DNA from: Acidobacteriota bacterium
GTDB lineage: Bacteria; Acidobacteriota; Blastocatellia; RBC074
Assembly (NCBI GenBank): GCA_016196035.1
Contig: JACPYM010000022.1
Span: forward strand, 1 to 64,000
Reading direction: 5' to 3'
Length of the DNA stretch: 64,000 nucleotides
In this document: piece by piece, positions 4,348 to 9,542 of the stretch
Numbering within the stretch: position 1 is the stretch's first letter
How the letters are laid out: every line of letters starts with the position of its first letter
The notes under the pieces: generated by a model
The model's database searches: none
The model's input: the letters and a program-made list of their open reading frames with translations, nothing else
What the model was told of the DNA's origin: nothing
Translations under genes and position numbers: made by a program

Positions 4348-4520
4348 TTGCGTCCGGCGCGAACCAGCAATCCCATTCAATCTTTAGTGCAAGCTCGTCG
4401 CAATGTGCAACGCAGGCGCGTTGGCAGGCGCAGCAGTGAAGCAAGCCCCATCCGCTGCGTTTCTTTTATTCTCTTCCAGCTTGTCGCGTTTTCCTGTTGG
4501 ACTTCTTTCGGAGTTAAGTG

Positions 4521-7500
4521 ATGCCCCTGTCCGGCCCCCAATTTCGTTCGCCAGGCTTCCACCGCCGCACGTTATGGTTAGGGTTCTTTGTTTTGAGCGT
4601 CTTGTGCATGCTGTTGGTGCTGGGGCCTGCCTTCTCTTCGCTGGCGCAACGCCGCGTGATGCGCCGGGCGGAAAGCGACCCAAAGCGCAAACCCGCGCCG
4701 CCTGCGCGTGCTGCCGGCAACCTGCGCAACCTGCTGCCCCAGCAGAAACTCGCTCCTGACGGTTCGCTCCTCGGCGAAACCTGGACGGGCGCGGAAGCTG
4801 TCAGCGAATCCACGGCGGAAATTATGGAGCGCGAACGGCAACGCGCCGCGCTGCCGCAACGCCAGGAACCCATAAACGAACTCGAACACGCGCGCCCCAA
4901 TCGCCAAAACCTGCCGCAAAATCCGAATGCTTTGCCCGGCGAACAATGGCCGCCGTTGAGCGCCGAGGAAACCAAGCAACTCGCGCCGGCGCGCCATCTC
5001 GTCGCCGCGCCGGCTGCGCCTCAACCCGTCACGCTCAACTTCACCGGCGCCACGCTGGCCGATTCCGGAGCCTTTCCGCCCGACTCAATGGGCGCCGTCG
5101 GGCCGACGCAATTTCTGCTGGTCATCAATGGGCGCATCCGCGTGTTTGACAAAAATACCGGCGCGGTGGGGCCGCTCGATGCCGACACCAATACGTTTTT
5201 CAACTCGGTCAGAGCGAATGCGACAGTCTCTGATCCGCGCGTGCGTTATGACCGGCTGTCGTCGCGCTGGTTTGTCGTGATGATCAACGTTCCGGCGTCG
5301 CTGGCCAACAACAGCATTCTGCTGGCTGTCAGCGATAGCGCGACGATTACGCCGAATACGGTGTGGCGCTTCTTCGGCTTCCAACAGCAACAACCCGCTA
5401 CGTCAGGCGACTCAGGTTGTTTTTCCGATTACCCGACGCTGGGCATTGACGCACAGGCGCTTTACATCGGGACGGATCAATTTTGCGGCGTTGATTTCGC
5501 TGGCACAGCCGCCTTTGTCATTCGCAAATCTTCGGTGCTCTTTACCGGCCCGCTGGTGGTCACGGCCTTTCGCAATTTGACGGGCACGCCCGATGGGCCG
5601 GGCCTTTATACGCCGCAGGGCGTGGACAATTACGACCCAGCCGCGACTGAAGGCTATTTCATCGGCGCGGATAACTCGACGCTGGGCCGTTTGGCCGTGC
5701 GGCGCGTTAGCAACCCGGGCGGCACACCGACGCTGTCGGCAAACATCTTCGTCAACGTGCTCTCGACCTCGGTGCCGCTTAAGATTCGCCACGCGGGCAA
5801 CAATAACGGCACGAATGGCTTTCTCGATTCGATTGACGACCGGTTGTATGCCGCGCACATGCGCAATGGCCGCTTGTGGACGGCGCACAACATCGCCGTC
5901 ACCAACACCGGCTCTACTGAAGGCAATCGCACGCGCACGGCAGCGCGTTGGTATGAACTCAGCGATTTGAACACCGACACGCCCAAGCCGGTGCAAGCCG
6001 GAACGCTCTTTGCCGAAAGCGCGACGAATAGTTTTAACGACCGCAACTATTTCATGCCTTCGATTGTGGTTTCAGGCCAGGGCCACGCGGCGCTGGGCGC
6101 ATCCAGCGCTGGCGCGAACGAAGCAGCCAATGCCGTGACCGCTGGACGGCTGGCGAGCGATCCGCGCGGTGCTCTGCGCGCGCCGGTGCTGCTGACCAAT
6201 TCCAGCGCGGCCTACAATCCCGCGCGGAATACGGGCAATGATGATGGCTTCCGGCGCTGGGGCGATTACTCCTACACCAGCGTAGACCCCTGCGATGACA
6301 TGACGCTGTGGACGATTCAGGAATTTTGCAACGCGACCGATTCCTGGGGCGTGCAGATCGCCCGCTTACAAGCGCCGCCGCCCGCCACACCCGCTGGCGT
6401 CAATCCGCCCAGTGTGCCCGCCGGTTTGGCTTCGACGACGATCACCGTCACCGGCATTGCGGCGAATGGCGCGGGCTTTTTCGATCCGGGCACGGGCTTC
6501 AATTGCCGTTTGCAAGCCCAGGTCAGCGGCGGCGTCACCGTCAGCGCGGTAAGTTATGTCAACCCGGCCACGGTGCGCCTGACGATCTCAACGACCAATG
6601 CCAGCACGGGTTTGAAGAACATCACCATCATCAACCCCGACGGTCAGAGCATCACCGCGAATAACCTGCTGACGGTCGGCAATTGCGCCTATACCGTCGC
6701 GCCAACGCAGCAAAGCTTCACCGCGGCGGGCGGTAATAGCTCGGTCACTGTGACGGCGGCGGCTGGTTGCGGCTGGACGGCGGTCAGCAACGATGCGTTT
6801 ATCACAGTCACTTCAACAAATCCTAGCAGCGGCAATGGCACGGTCACTTACACCGTCGCCCCGACGGTCGCGGGCGCGCGCAGCGGCACGCTGACGATTG
6901 CGGGACAGACCGTGACGATCACGCAAAACGCGGGCGCGGGTTGCAACTTCACGCTCGCGCCCGGCAATGCCCAATTCAAAGCCGGTGGCGGTTATGGCAC
7001 ATTCAACGTCAGCACGCCGGTGGATTGTGTCTGGACAGCGGGCACGGCGAGTTCGTTTGTGAACCTGCTGTTCAGCACCGCCGGGCAAGGCAATGGCGCG
7101 GTCAATTTTTATGTCGCGCCGAACGCCACGCCCATCGCGCGCACCGCGACCATTGCGGCGGGCGGCCAGAACTTCAACCTGACGCAGGAAGCCGCGCCGC
7201 TCGAAATCGCCGTGGATGATGGTTCGTTGGAAACCGCGACCGGTTTGGGCGCGGGCGGCACCTCGGTACGTGTCAATCGGCTGACGCCGCCGTTTTATCC
7301 GGCGACGGTGGGCGCGGTGGCGATTTATTTTCCCGACGCGCTCGGCGTCAACGTGGGCGATCCGTTCACCCTGCTGGCCGGGGCAAATTTGGATGGCGAT
7401 GAAAATCTGGACGGCACGCCGTTTCAGGAAACCGCCGTCACAGTCAAGGCGCTGGGTGATTTCAACGTTTATACCCTGAGCACGCCGTTGACGATCAACA

Positions 7501-9341
7501 GCGGCGATTTCGTGCTGGGCATGCGCTTGAACCACGCGGAAGGTGTGCGGCCCTTCGCGCGTGACACCACGCTGCCCTCGCGCCGCCGTTCGTATCGGCA
7601 AGTAGACGGTGCGACGGCGTTTCAATTGATTGACGACCCGCCCGTCAATACGCCCGGCAATTACGGCATCCGCGCGCAACTGATTCGCCCGGCCAAACTG
7701 CTGGTCAAAGGCGGTGCAGTACTGACGGCGGAAAGCTGTTTGCCCGCCAACGGCGTGATTGATCCCGGCGAAACCGTCACTGTCAACCTGACGGTGCAAA
7801 ACAACGGTTCGAGCAGCACCGATAACTTAAGCGCCGCGTTGCAACCGACCGGCGGCGTGACGACGGCGGGCGTGACGCAAAGTTTCGGCGCGATTGCACC
7901 AGGTTCGGCGGTCACGCGCCCCTTCACCTTTGTCGCGGCGGGCAATTGCGGCAACACGCTGACGCTGACGGTCAACCTCAGCGATGCGGGGCAATCTTTG
8001 GGCACGCAAAGTTACAACTTCAGGTTGGGCGCGCCAGCTGCCAACAGCTCGACCTTCAAATTTACCGGGCCGCCCGCCGCCATTCCCGACGGCGACGCGC
8101 GCGGGATTAACGTGACGATTCCAGTCAGCGGCTTCACCGGCCCGCTGGCGGATTTGAATGTGCGCTTTGACGGTTCGCAATGCACCACGGCGGCGGGCGC
8201 GACAACGGTCGGCCTCGCGCATGATTTCGTCGGCGATTTGGTCGTCAAATTGACTTCACCACAAGGCACCACCATCGTGCTGATGGATCGGCCCGGCAGT
8301 GCCGCCAATAGCGGGCGCAATTTCTGCCAAACAGTCTTGGATGACGACAGCGCCGGCGCCACTTCGATTCAGCAGATTTCGCCATTGCTCACCTCGCCGG
8401 TCGGGCCGCCCTATTCCAGCACCTTCAACCCCGCGAATCCGCTCGCCGCCTTTGACGGCGAAAACCCGAATGGCAACTGGACGCTCAATGTCGCCGATCT
8501 AAGCCCGGAAGACACCGGCACCGTGCGCGGCGTCTCGCTGGTCTTGAGCGGTTTTGCCTGTTGTCAGAGCGCGCAACCGCAATTCGCCTACGAAGGCGAT
8601 GTCGCCCCGCGACCCAACGGCAACGGCGCGGCGACCGCCGCCGATTGGACGATGCTGGGCCGCATGATTATGGGATTGGTCACGCCCACGCCCGGCAGTG
8701 AATTTCAACGTGCCGATTGCGCGCCGCGCGAAACGCTGGGCAATGGAGCATTGACAGCGGCGGATTTCACGCAAGCGGGCCGCTACGTCGCGGGCCTCGA
8801 TCCGCTGACGCCCGCAGGCGGGCCGCTCGCGCCCAATGTGCTGTTTGAAACACAGGCGCGTTATGTGGCGGAACCGGCGGCACCCGCGCTGACCATCCCC
8901 GCGCGCGGCCAAAGCACGCGCGGCTTCACACTCACGCTGGCGGCCACCGGCGCTGAAAATGCGCTGAGCACGACCTTGCGGTTTGATTCCACGCGCTGGC
9001 AATTCGTCGCAGCCACGACGCCGCAAGCCGCTACGTTACTCGTCAACGAAACTCGCACCGCAGATGGGTTGCTGGGATTGGTGCTCGCACTGCCCGCCAA
9101 TCAAACCTTCGCGGCGAGCCAGGTGGACGTGGTGCAACTGACGTTTCAAGCGCGCGCCGGACACAGCGCTGAACCGCTCACGTTGCAATTCTGCGATGAG
9201 GTCATCGGGCGTGAACTGGCGGATGTGCAGGCGCGTGTGTTGAAAGCTGGCAATGAATTTGGGCTTGGCGTAAGCTTCGCGCGCTTTACGCTGCCGGAAC
9301 GGCAATCTCGAAAACAACCGGCAGCGCGCTTACGACAGTAG
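4521..9341 (+). CDS. Giant secreted protein with BACON, P-domain, dockerin-like and cohesin-like modules
   Basis: The product has 1606 residues from the ATG at 4521, which has GGAG 7 bases upstream; a GTG at 4518 is the alternative. Order of modules: export signal with a hydrophobic segment at about 18-42; propeller-like region at about 173-616, related to the one in the protein at 32062-36525; IPT/TIG-like region at about 626-720; two BACON repeats at about 723-890; an undefined beta domain; an APHP/CARDB-like domain at about 1058-1170; a proprotein-convertase P-domain-like module at about 1173-1346; a dockerin-like pair of NGNGAATAADW / LGNGALTAADF loops at about 1356-1431; and a cohesin-like domain at about 1443-1583. 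No catalytic domain is recognised. It probably works in adhesion or surface assembly. It lacks the C-terminal module found in its neighbours. Confidence 0.8.
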   Translation: MPLSGPQFRSPGFHRRTLWLGFFVLSVLCMLLVLGPAFSSLAQRRVMRRAESDPKRKPAPPARAAGNLRNLLPQQKLAPDGSLLGETWTGAEAVSESTAEIMERERQRAALPQRQEPINELEHARPNRQNLPQNPNALPGEQWPPLSAEETKQLAPARHLVAAPAAPQPVTLNFTGATLADSGAFPPDSMGAVGPTQFLLVINGRIRVFDKNTGAVGPLDADTNTFFNSVRANATVSDPRVRYDRLSSRWFVVMINVPASLANNSILLAVSDSATITPNTVWRFFGFQQQQPATSGDSGCFSDYPTLGIDAQALYIGTDQFCGVDFAGTAAFVIRKSSVLFTGPLVVTAFRNLTGTPDGPGLYTPQGVDNYDPAATEGYFIGADNSTLGRLAVRRVSNPGGTPTLSANIFVNVLSTSVPLKIRHAGNNNGTNGFLDSIDDRLYAAHMRNGRLWTAHNIAVTNTGSTEGNRTRTAARWYELSDLNTDTPKPVQAGTLFAESATNSFNDRNYFMPSIVVSGQGHAALGASSAGANEAANAVTAGRLASDPRGALRAPVLLTNSSAAYNPARNTGNDDGFRRWGDYSYTSVDPCDDMTLWTIQEFCNATDSWGVQIARLQAPPPATPAGVNPPSVPAGLASTTITVTGIAANGAGFFDPGTGFNCRLQAQVSGGVTVSAVSYVNPATVRLTISTTNASTGLKNITIINPDGQSITANNLLTVGNCAYTVAPTQQSFTAAGGNSSVTVTAAAGCGWTAVSNDAFITVTSTNPSSGNGTVTYTVAPTVAGARSGTLTIAGQTVTITQNAGAGCNFTLAPGNAQFKAGGGYGTFNVSTPVDCVWTAGTASSFVNLLFSTAGQGNGAVNFYVAPNATPIARTATIAAGGQNFNLTQEAAPLEIAVDDGSLETATGLGAGGTSVRVNRLTPPFYPATVGAVAIYFPDALGVNVGDPFTLLAGANLDGDENLDGTPFQETAVTVKALGDFNVYTLSTPLTINSGDFVLGMRLNHAEGVRPFARDTTLPSRRRSYRQVDGATAFQLIDDPPVNTPGNYGIRAQLIRPAKLLVKGGAVLTAESCLPANGVIDPGETVTVNLTVQNNGSSSTDNLSAALQPTGGVTTAGVTQSFGAIAPGSAVTRPFTFVAAGNCGNTLTLTVNLSDAGQSLGTQSYNFRLGAPAANSSTFKFTGPPAAIPDGDARGINVTIPVSGFTGPLADLNVRFDGSQCTTAAGATTVGLAHDFVGDLVVKLTSPQGTTIVLMDRPGSAANSGRNFCQTVLDDDSAGATSIQQISPLLTSPVGPPYSSTFNPANPLAAFDGENPNGNWTLNVADLSPEDTGTVRGVSLVLSGFACCQSAQPQFAYEGDVAPRPNGNGAATAADWTMLGRMIMGLVTPTPGSEFQRADCAPRETLGNGALTAADFTQAGRYVAGLDPLTPAGGPLAPNVLFETQARYVAEPAAPALTIPARGQSTRGFTLTLAATGAENALSTTLRFDSTRWQFVAATTPQAATLLVNETRTADGLLGLVLALPANQTFAASQVDVVQLTFQARAGHSAEPLTLQFCDEVIGRELADVQARVLKAGNEFGLGVSFARFTLPERQSRKQPAARLRQ

Positions 9342-9355
9342 CGTGCAACACCCCG

Positions 9356-9542
9356 CCCTGAAAGGGCGAAATTTAATAGCCGGGGGCAAGCAACGCGCCG
9401 CCCCGGGTGACCTTGCGATGAATGGATAAGCCCTGAAAGGGCGAAATTTGAAAGCAGATTACGCCCTTTCAGGGCTTATCTATTCTTTCGGCTTGTCCGT
9501 GGGCGTTGCCCACGGCTATTGAATTTCGCCCTTGCAGGGCTT
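9356..9542. repeat. REP-like cluster of CCCTGAAAGGGCGAAATTT units
   Basis: A short element built on CCCTGAAAGGGCGAAATTT occurs at about 9356-9375 and 9431-9449. Inverted copies occur at 9462-9475 and, with variation, at 9521-9542. The middle pair forms a perfect 19-bp inverted repeat (9425-9443/9462-9480). The layout resembles REP/BIME elements found between genes in several phyla. No transposase lies nearby. Confidence 0.75.

Follow-up and report, generated by a model that had tools for sequence, protein, structure and literature searches.

A divergent dockerin and a cohesin at the end of an acidobacterial giant protein form one copy of a widespread cassette

What do a plug and its socket do on one and the same chain? 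This question is raised by the window analysed here, a stretch of 64,000 nucleotides from an Acidobacteriota bacterium (contig JACPYM010000022.1), which encodes a giant protein of 1607 amino acids (aa) that ends in a dockerin-like module directly followed by a cohesin-like one. The window tail is one copy of a widespread cassette with the order (cohesin 1)-dockerin-cohesin 2. It thus belongs, beyond what a preliminary description of this DNA had claimed, to a family-wide arrangement that usually has a second cohesin in front. The best reading of our results is self-recognition, in which the dockerin would take the cohesin of its own chain or that of an identical chain. The role of cohesins and dockerins outside cellulosomes is given as an open question in the accessible part of PMC9012536.

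Identity of the two modules

The window protein comprises the following parts, with secondary structure taken from an AlphaFold2 (AF2) model of its tail (pLDDT, predicted local distance difference test; E, expectation value):

4518..9341, + strand: open reading frame (ORF) of the giant protein, 1607 aa, start GTG 4518 or ATG 4521
8205..8540, + strand: proprotein-convertase P-domain, residues 1230-1341, at the position where 114/193 relatives carry cohesin 1
8574..8849, + strand: divergent dockerin with two F-hands, residues 1353-1444 (local profile E 1e-41, this profile including the window copy)
8598..8645, + strand: dockerin loop 1, D1361-D1376, with the insertion APRP after the first Asp-x pair
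8637..8669, + strand: predicted dockerin helix 1 (repeat 1), degenerate in the window copy
8715..8765, + strand: dockerin loop 2, D1400-D1416, with the insertion APRET
8757..8789, + strand: predicted dockerin helix 3 (repeat 2)
8850..8888, + strand: linker (model residues 96-105 with pLDDT under 50)
8889..9284, + strand: cohesin, residues about 1458-1589, the model showing nine strands at least three residues long

Residues about 1458-1589 form a cohesin, linked to the Pfam family Cohesin (PF00963) through paralogues in the own genome. The last 256 aa of the window protein matched no dockerin or cohesin of Pfam or NCBIfam at E<=10, and the cohesin alone matched nothing in the PDB by phmmer at E<=10. 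The tail was identified through its paralogues, through profiles and through its predicted fold. Pfam Cohesin was found at 22 places of the own genome at E<=1, 17 of them above the cut-off; these include paralogues of the window tail but not the window copy. When the nine tails of this genome were made into a profile, solved cohesins came first among its PDB matches (NagJ 3.8e-4, 2vn5 8e-4, 1g1k 1.8e-3), and a profile of 46 cohesin sequences from relatives reached 4.7e-7 against solved cohesins, which bears out the cohesin-like domain of the preliminary description. The local cohesin hidden Markov model (HMM) matches window residues 1467-1577 at E 4e-29, and PF00963 matches 45/48 triples of relatives at E<=0.1. 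In the structure comparison, both the window model and that of the relative L035 show the cohesin jelly-roll fold. Judged by title, all 50 PDB matches listed for the window model (Z 8.0-11.8) are cohesins or scaffoldin entries that contain one, and the two cohesins of L035 reach Z 19.5-19.7 (range among the matches listed 12.4-19.7). For the window cohesin, the model shows a weak first canonical strand, and confidence is low over the final ~12 residues.

Residues 1353-1444 are a divergent relative of dockerins and not a type I dockerin. This identity is less strongly evidenced than that of the cohesin, and five lines support it. In the AF2 model the secondary structure runs loop-helix-helix-loop-helix (helices at model residues 25-35, 45-50 and 65-75), so that the duplicated F-hand pattern for which a structure prediction had been suggested is present in the predicted fold. 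Searching the PDB with the dockerin profile gave four matches, three of which are dockerins (E 0.18-0.37). A profile of 33 sequences gave 14 (E 0.06-1.6), and the four best of these are, by title, the dockerin chains of the cohesin-dockerin complexes 4uyp, 4uyq, 2ccl and 1ohz; most of the remaining ones are presumably dockerins or dockerin-bearing enzymes. Aligned by hhalign to 13 canonical dockerins, the family profile reached E 2e-4 at a probability of 47%, against 0.2% for a cohesin profile as negative control. Four intermediate sequences match the family profile and also lie above the cut-off of Pfam Dockerin_1: G389:C16 (5.9e-20; 29.1 bits), G389:C119 (5.2e-27; 23.4 bits), G157:C18 (6.9e-12; 33.7 bits) and G416:C899 (1.4e-28; 23.3 bits). 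The cohesins on the same chain count as the fifth line. Two results count against the assignment: Pfam Dockerin_1 (PF00404) matches 0/48 triples at E<=0.1 and only 4/33 family dockerins at E<=1. Foldseek and VIA-align list cohesins only for both models and are thus uninformative on the dockerin fold. The dockerin-like module that had been proposed is matched by solved dockerins weakly but consistently.

The calcium (Ca) loop of type I dockerins reads D-x-N/D-x-D-G-x-[VIL]-x-x-x-D and has no insertion. In our alignment, both loops of the family carry 4-5 additional residues after the first Asp-x, while positions 5, 6, 8 and 12 are mostly retained. Loop 1 reads D-V-x-P-R-P-x-G..[DN]-G-x-[VLI]-x-x-x-D, and loop 2 reads D-C-A-P-x-x-T-x-G-[DN]-G-x-[LI]-x-x-x-D. 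Because of this insertion in both loops we name the module a divergent dockerin relative rather than a type I dockerin; the deviation of the ligands from the classical set, noticed before, takes this form. Over several phyla, D7 (98%), D24 (100%), D48 (99%), G56 (100%), D64 (100%) and R70 (97%) are near-invariant. Among the nine dockerins of the own genome, E-[AG]-D-V-x-P-R and EFQRADCAP are invariant, as are, in the numbering of the window fragment, E10, D12, V13, P15, R16, G19, D27, R33, G59, G61 and D67, among others.

Order and spread of the cassette

The own genome (9.59 Mb, 139 contigs) was searched with the last 256 aa of the window protein, which gave 20 places at E<=1, nine of them with the dockerin, including the window. 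The other eight copies of the dockerin match at 39-65% identity in the aligned part (best E 7e-47), and each is followed by a cohesin according to the local HMM. In the window, DVAPRPNGNGAATAADW and DCAPRETLGNGALTAADF are both present in ORF and DNA with the beta domain behind them, and the closing Asp pair D1376/D1416 is spaced by 40 residues; two loops in dockerin-like spacing followed by a beta domain had been described correctly, and with eight paralogous places the pattern goes beyond chance. Pfam Dockerin_1 itself was found at three places of the own genome (two above the cut-off, one together with its neighbours), each between two cohesins. The giant proteins concerned are L031, L032 and L025 (10348-15708, - strand); L031 and L032 contain FG-GAP repeats, and L025 ends, by eye, in a Soli_cterm-like stretch. 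The search for further dockerin-bearing proteins in the genome thus yielded 12 dockerins, all on cohesin-bearing chains.

Beyond this genome, a search for related loci gave 78, labelled Acidobacteria, Verrucomicrobia, KSB1, Hydrogenedentota, plain 'bacterium' (two), Proteobacteria (three) and Klebsiella (one). The latter four are probably mislabelled metagenome-assembled genomes (MAGs). L098, L101 and L106, from MAGs labelled Proteobacteria or Klebsiella pneumoniae, have C-terminal tails closely like those of L094, L099 and L108, which are labelled Verrucomicrobia; the tail of L065 resembles the Verrucomicrobia-labelled ones less closely. Mislabelling or contamination is the probable source of the labels of L098, L101 and L106 (and L065).

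Within the own family, dockerin matches occur in 11/11 genomes (2-15 each). In two drawn samples, in which at most 12-13 candidates were scored per genome so that the counts are lower bounds, the dockerin was found in at least 21/396 genomes of the phylum and in at least 25/384 of a verrucomicrobial class. With truncated views merged, 193 distinct dockerin modules from about 90 genome labels were obtained, 184 with cohesin 2 directly after, 114 with cohesin 1 before and 111 with both. Of the nine modules lacking cohesin 2, L226 and L278 run off their contigs, L123 and L140 have a divergent cohesin behind them, and in five (L064, L068, L086, L220, L221) the chain ends or is interrupted at the dockerin. 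The gap between cohesin 1 and dockerin measures 1-12 residues (1-5 in 103/114), the linker from dockerin to cohesin 2 11-50 (median 24).

What follows cohesin 2, frequently a sorting domain, varies: a TIGR03437 Soli_cterm domain (~225 aa) in the three own-genome proteins scanned (L022, L026, L028), a type IX secretion system tail in one KSB1 protein, and in other relatives, by eye, other domains or a tail of 70-95 residues. The window protein has neither cohesin 1 nor a tail domain; it ends 30 residues past the cohesin match, and the NCBIfam scan gave no match to Soli_cterm at E<=10. L057 (4104-9443, + strand) carries two full cohesin-dockerin-cohesin cassettes in tandem on one protein.

A tree of 92 dockerin-cohesin 2 pairs, in which Proteobacteria-labelled rows were counted with Verrucomicrobia, groups by labelled phylum, with 7 changes where 200 shuffles gave at least 28. 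Recent transfer between phyla as a frequent event was considered as well and is unsupported, since the tree follows the phylum labels.

Covariation between dockerin and cohesins

Deduplicated modules were subjected to mean-field direct coupling analysis with 20 shuffles, for the dockerin with cohesin 2 (183 modules, effective number 170, 10,988 pairs) and with cohesin 1 (114 modules, effective 106, 11,070 pairs). For cohesin 2 the three strongest couplings are d63-119 (1.99), d61-117 (1.43) and d29-75 (1.26), of which only the first two exceed the largest shuffle value of 1.32. For cohesin 1, d31-135 (1.76, near the junction) is followed by d23-119 (1.38), and d63-119 ranks 2252nd of 11,070. 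Columns d23 and d63 are position 11 of loops 1 and 2, d61 is position 9, and d29 is position 17 of repeat 1. In the window the coupled sites of repeat 2 and the cohesin are:

8754..8762, + strand: T1413-A1414-A1415, loop positions 9-11 of repeat 2, from alignment and couplings
9213..9221, + strand: E1566-L1567-A1568 at columns 117-119 of the cohesin; columns 117 and 119 show covariation with repeat 2 of the dockerin

A1414-A1415 (loop 2 positions 10-11) align with the Ser-Thr of 1ohz_B, which is Ala-Ala in 2ccl_B (S45A and T46A by the title of 2ccl). At d61-117 the window has the most frequent pair, T1413-E1566, and at d63-119 the second most frequent, A1415-A1568. Strand 69-75 of the L035 model, which we count as the sixth, has column 75 as its last residue, and column 117 lies in a short strand (116-118) behind the eighth; strands 8-3-6-5 of the cohesin form what we take to be its dockerin-binding face. 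Residue sizes are also complementary, in classes picked after the tables had been seen: column 119 of cohesin 2 is V/I/T in 10/53 modules with a larger residue at d63, versus 77/125 with A/S/G there, and under the same larger-versus-smaller rule column 119 of cohesin 1 is larger than A/S/G in 9/53 versus 41/61.

When paralogues were shuffled within genomes, the couplings to cohesin 2 (d63-119 p 0.0028, d61-117 p 0.0002, d29-75 p 0.0002) and the one to cohesin 1 (d23-119 p 0.0012) stood out, and the crossed pairs were not significant (d63-cohesin 1 p 0.10, d61-cohesin 1 p 0.20). Thus, judged from these alignments, the dockerin and the cohesins of a given chain seem fitted to each other, repeat 2 corresponding mainly to cohesin 2 and repeat 1 to cohesin 1. 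Family f1 shows lower conservation of repeat 1 where cohesin 1 is lacking (p 0.028), but not of repeat 2 (p 0.89); this comparison covers 33 modules with and 42 without cohesin 1, and the latter include one truncated duplicate.

Could the dockerin instead be a vestige, a structural spacer that has lost both calcium and cohesin binding? Both loops have changed residues at Ca-ligand positions 1 and 3, and repeat 1 of the window stands at the 6th percentile of conservation (its difference to repeat 2 at the 3rd). Nevertheless, the residues that are near-invariant over several phyla and the location of the couplings at recognition sites argue the other way, and we regard such a loss as highly improbable.

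Several observations weigh against a match of the dockerin to its own chain, or against the closed tail discussed below. With cohesin 1, the coupling d23-119 (1.38) does not reach the maximum of its 20 shuffles (1.41), and with cohesin 2 it also ranks 21st of 10,988 (within-genome p 0.02); therefore the assignment of repeats is not clear-cut. Swap symmetry was not borne out when tested globally (Spearman 0.03 swapped versus 0.07 unswapped). Among the top chain-specific cohesin 2 pairs, strands 8-3-6-5 are only modestly enriched (29/50 versus 20.4 expected), this enrichment is gone after double centring at the top 100 (41 versus 40.9 expected), and for cohesin 1 the opposite sheet leads (31/50 versus 21.6 expected). 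Co-inheritance on one chain can mimic chain specificity, and the mean z of all pairs is 0.55; this all-pairs shuffle and the strand enrichment used a set with a few duplicates, and nine pairs were rerun without them. In modules outside f1, a missing cohesin 1 goes along with decay of both repeats. The placement of the modules in the AF2 model is read from an overall score alone and is thus indirect, the contact face not being visible. Finally, cohesin-only proteins exist and could be partners in trans.

Own chain, like neighbour or separate partner

For the window tail (242 residues, 73 sequences), AF2 gave a mean pLDDT of 88.1 and, despite the low-confidence linker, a predicted template modelling score (pTM) of 0.86; for the L035 triple the values were 94 and 0.79. 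Since the pTM is this high across such a linker, the window model suggests that the dockerin is confidently placed against the cohesin. We favour the following explanation, which as a whole, including the self-closing tail, could well go either way. Module identity, order, spread and covariation are results, whereas binding, cis geometry, calcium, surface location and role are inferred. The region would be the C-terminal end of a cassette for self-recognition outside cellulosomes, to which many relatives add a lineage-specific tail domain. Dockerin repeat 2 would bind, on the same kind of chain, cohesin 2 at its canonical dockerin-binding face, and repeat 1 would be tuned to cohesin 1 where that is present, which would provide two alternative partners in a dual binding mode. 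The window protein would retain just the pair of dockerin and cohesin 2, with repeat 1 decayed. Most likely, the tail would close on itself, or swap with a like neighbour, to give a compact knob, probably stabilised by calcium, that may rigidify or couple surface proteins next to their anchor.

If the dockerin instead takes up the cohesin of an adjacent identical chain, a head-to-tail homopolymer would result, in the form of fibres or a surface lattice. The covariation within chains equally fits recognition between identical chains, and the gap of 1-5 residues between cohesin 1 and dockerin in 103/114 modules would leave little slack in cis, so that cohesin 1 may face outward. In contrast, the linker to cohesin 2 looks sufficient for a clasp in cis that would profit from local concentration, and a single chain already yields a high pTM. 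We consider the polymer a tentative possibility; the cis clasp is preferred over it only because the linker looks long enough and the pTM of the single chain is high. Clasping and head-to-tail polymerisation, both named as conceivable in the preliminary description, thus remain the appropriate two options: recognition of the own kind is favoured by the covariation, which does not tell them apart. It is unlikely, in our view, that the tail is a calcium-switched device whose dockerin is held between the two cohesins of its own chain and toggles via its two repeats. If true, an intramolecular dual-binding switch, set beside varied tail domains in several phyla, would determine whether surface proteins are closed or linked to a neighbour.

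A further alternative is assembly in trans, scaffold-like or anchoring, on cohesin-only surface proteins or on a cohesin-bearing secretin. The own genome encodes cohesin-only proteins of 550, 1580 and 1795 aa (the 1580-aa one by the local HMM only) and a secretin of 1114 aa that carries a cohesin. This secretin (L033, 6354-9695, - strand, contig C107; Secretin 3e-28, C-terminal Cohesin 5.5e-8, 33.5 bits) is a possible outer-membrane socket. Moreover, three verrucomicrobial proteins with dockerin and cohesin 2 but lacking cohesin 1 (L044, L056, L058) each adjoin a tri-cohesin protein, whereas a cohesin-only neighbour was found for 2/34 verrucomicrobial modules with both cohesins (Fisher p 0.0013; flank lengths differ, and L044 and L058 share a genome). 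Cohesin 1 may therefore be replaceable by a partner in trans. On the other hand, every dockerin found in the own genome shares its chain with a cohesin (9/9 divergent, 3/3 canonical), no glycoside hydrolase domain was found in the 8/9 divergent-dockerin proteins scanned, and covariation with the own chain exceeds that with paralogues. We regard trans assembly as improbable. With no dockerin lacking an on-chain cohesin at the thresholds used (12/12), a classical cellulosome, with dockerin-bearing enzymes and a separate multi-cohesin scaffoldin, is not supported in the own genome. It is the apparent matching of plug and socket within each chain that hints at self-clasping rather than cellulosome-style assembly. 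Scaffoldin-like tri-cohesin proteins with Ig-like spacers stand beside dockerin-cohesin genes in Verrucomicrobia (L042, L044, L056, L058). Divergent dockerins hidden in the 86-89-residue gaps of four such proteins were considered; a permissive profile search found none, and by eye the gaps are Ig-like.

The closest described systems compare with the cassette as follows. With the type I cellulosome pairs (C. thermocellum 1ohz/2ccl, C. cellulolyticum 2vn5/2vn6) the window family shares the cohesin fold, the duplicated F-hand pattern and the recognition positions 10-11 of each repeat, and possibly the dual binding mode, as far as the title of 2vn5 and the accessible part of PMC12484212 describe it. 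It differs in having plug and socket on one chain and an insertion in the dockerin loops, and no set of enzymes plus scaffoldin was seen in the own genome. Adaptor scaffoldins, in the accessible part of PMC11557425, likewise combine cohesin and dockerin on one protein; however, they attach other proteins, whereas the window family shows fixed order and spacing and covariation with the own chain. Archaeal noncellulosomal cohesins and dockerins (Archaeoglobus fulgidus, ANME) also occur outside cellulose degradation with their function open, and the accessible part of PMC9012536 does not describe a cohesin-dockerin-cohesin cassette for them. The A. fulgidus cohesin 2xdh superimposes on the L035 cohesin with Z 17.8 and a root-mean-square deviation of 1.7 over 125 aligned residues. 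The C. perfringens NagJ cohesin (2jh2, 2ozn), compared in its cohesin part, is the best solved match of the nine-copy profile mentioned above. Among the matches listed, judged by titles and abstract beginnings, no description of the cassette was found in the open-licence literature, nor was any mention of TIGR03437. The cassette is a defined, repeated unit whose pairing rule, by which repeat 2 goes with cohesin 2 and repeat 1 with cohesin 1, can be tested, and it could yield a self-clasping protein tag.

Besides its tail, the window protein starts with a hydrophobic stretch that by eye resembles a signal peptide. The Pfam scan found P_proprotein at residues 1230-1341 (8.4e-13), and matches to BACON and CARDB fall under their cut-offs. 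Behind the gene, at 9356-9539 of the window, the palindrome-like CCCTGAAAGGGC occurs four times, once with a mismatch, and in both orientations, at a chance expectation of 0.39 in the window.

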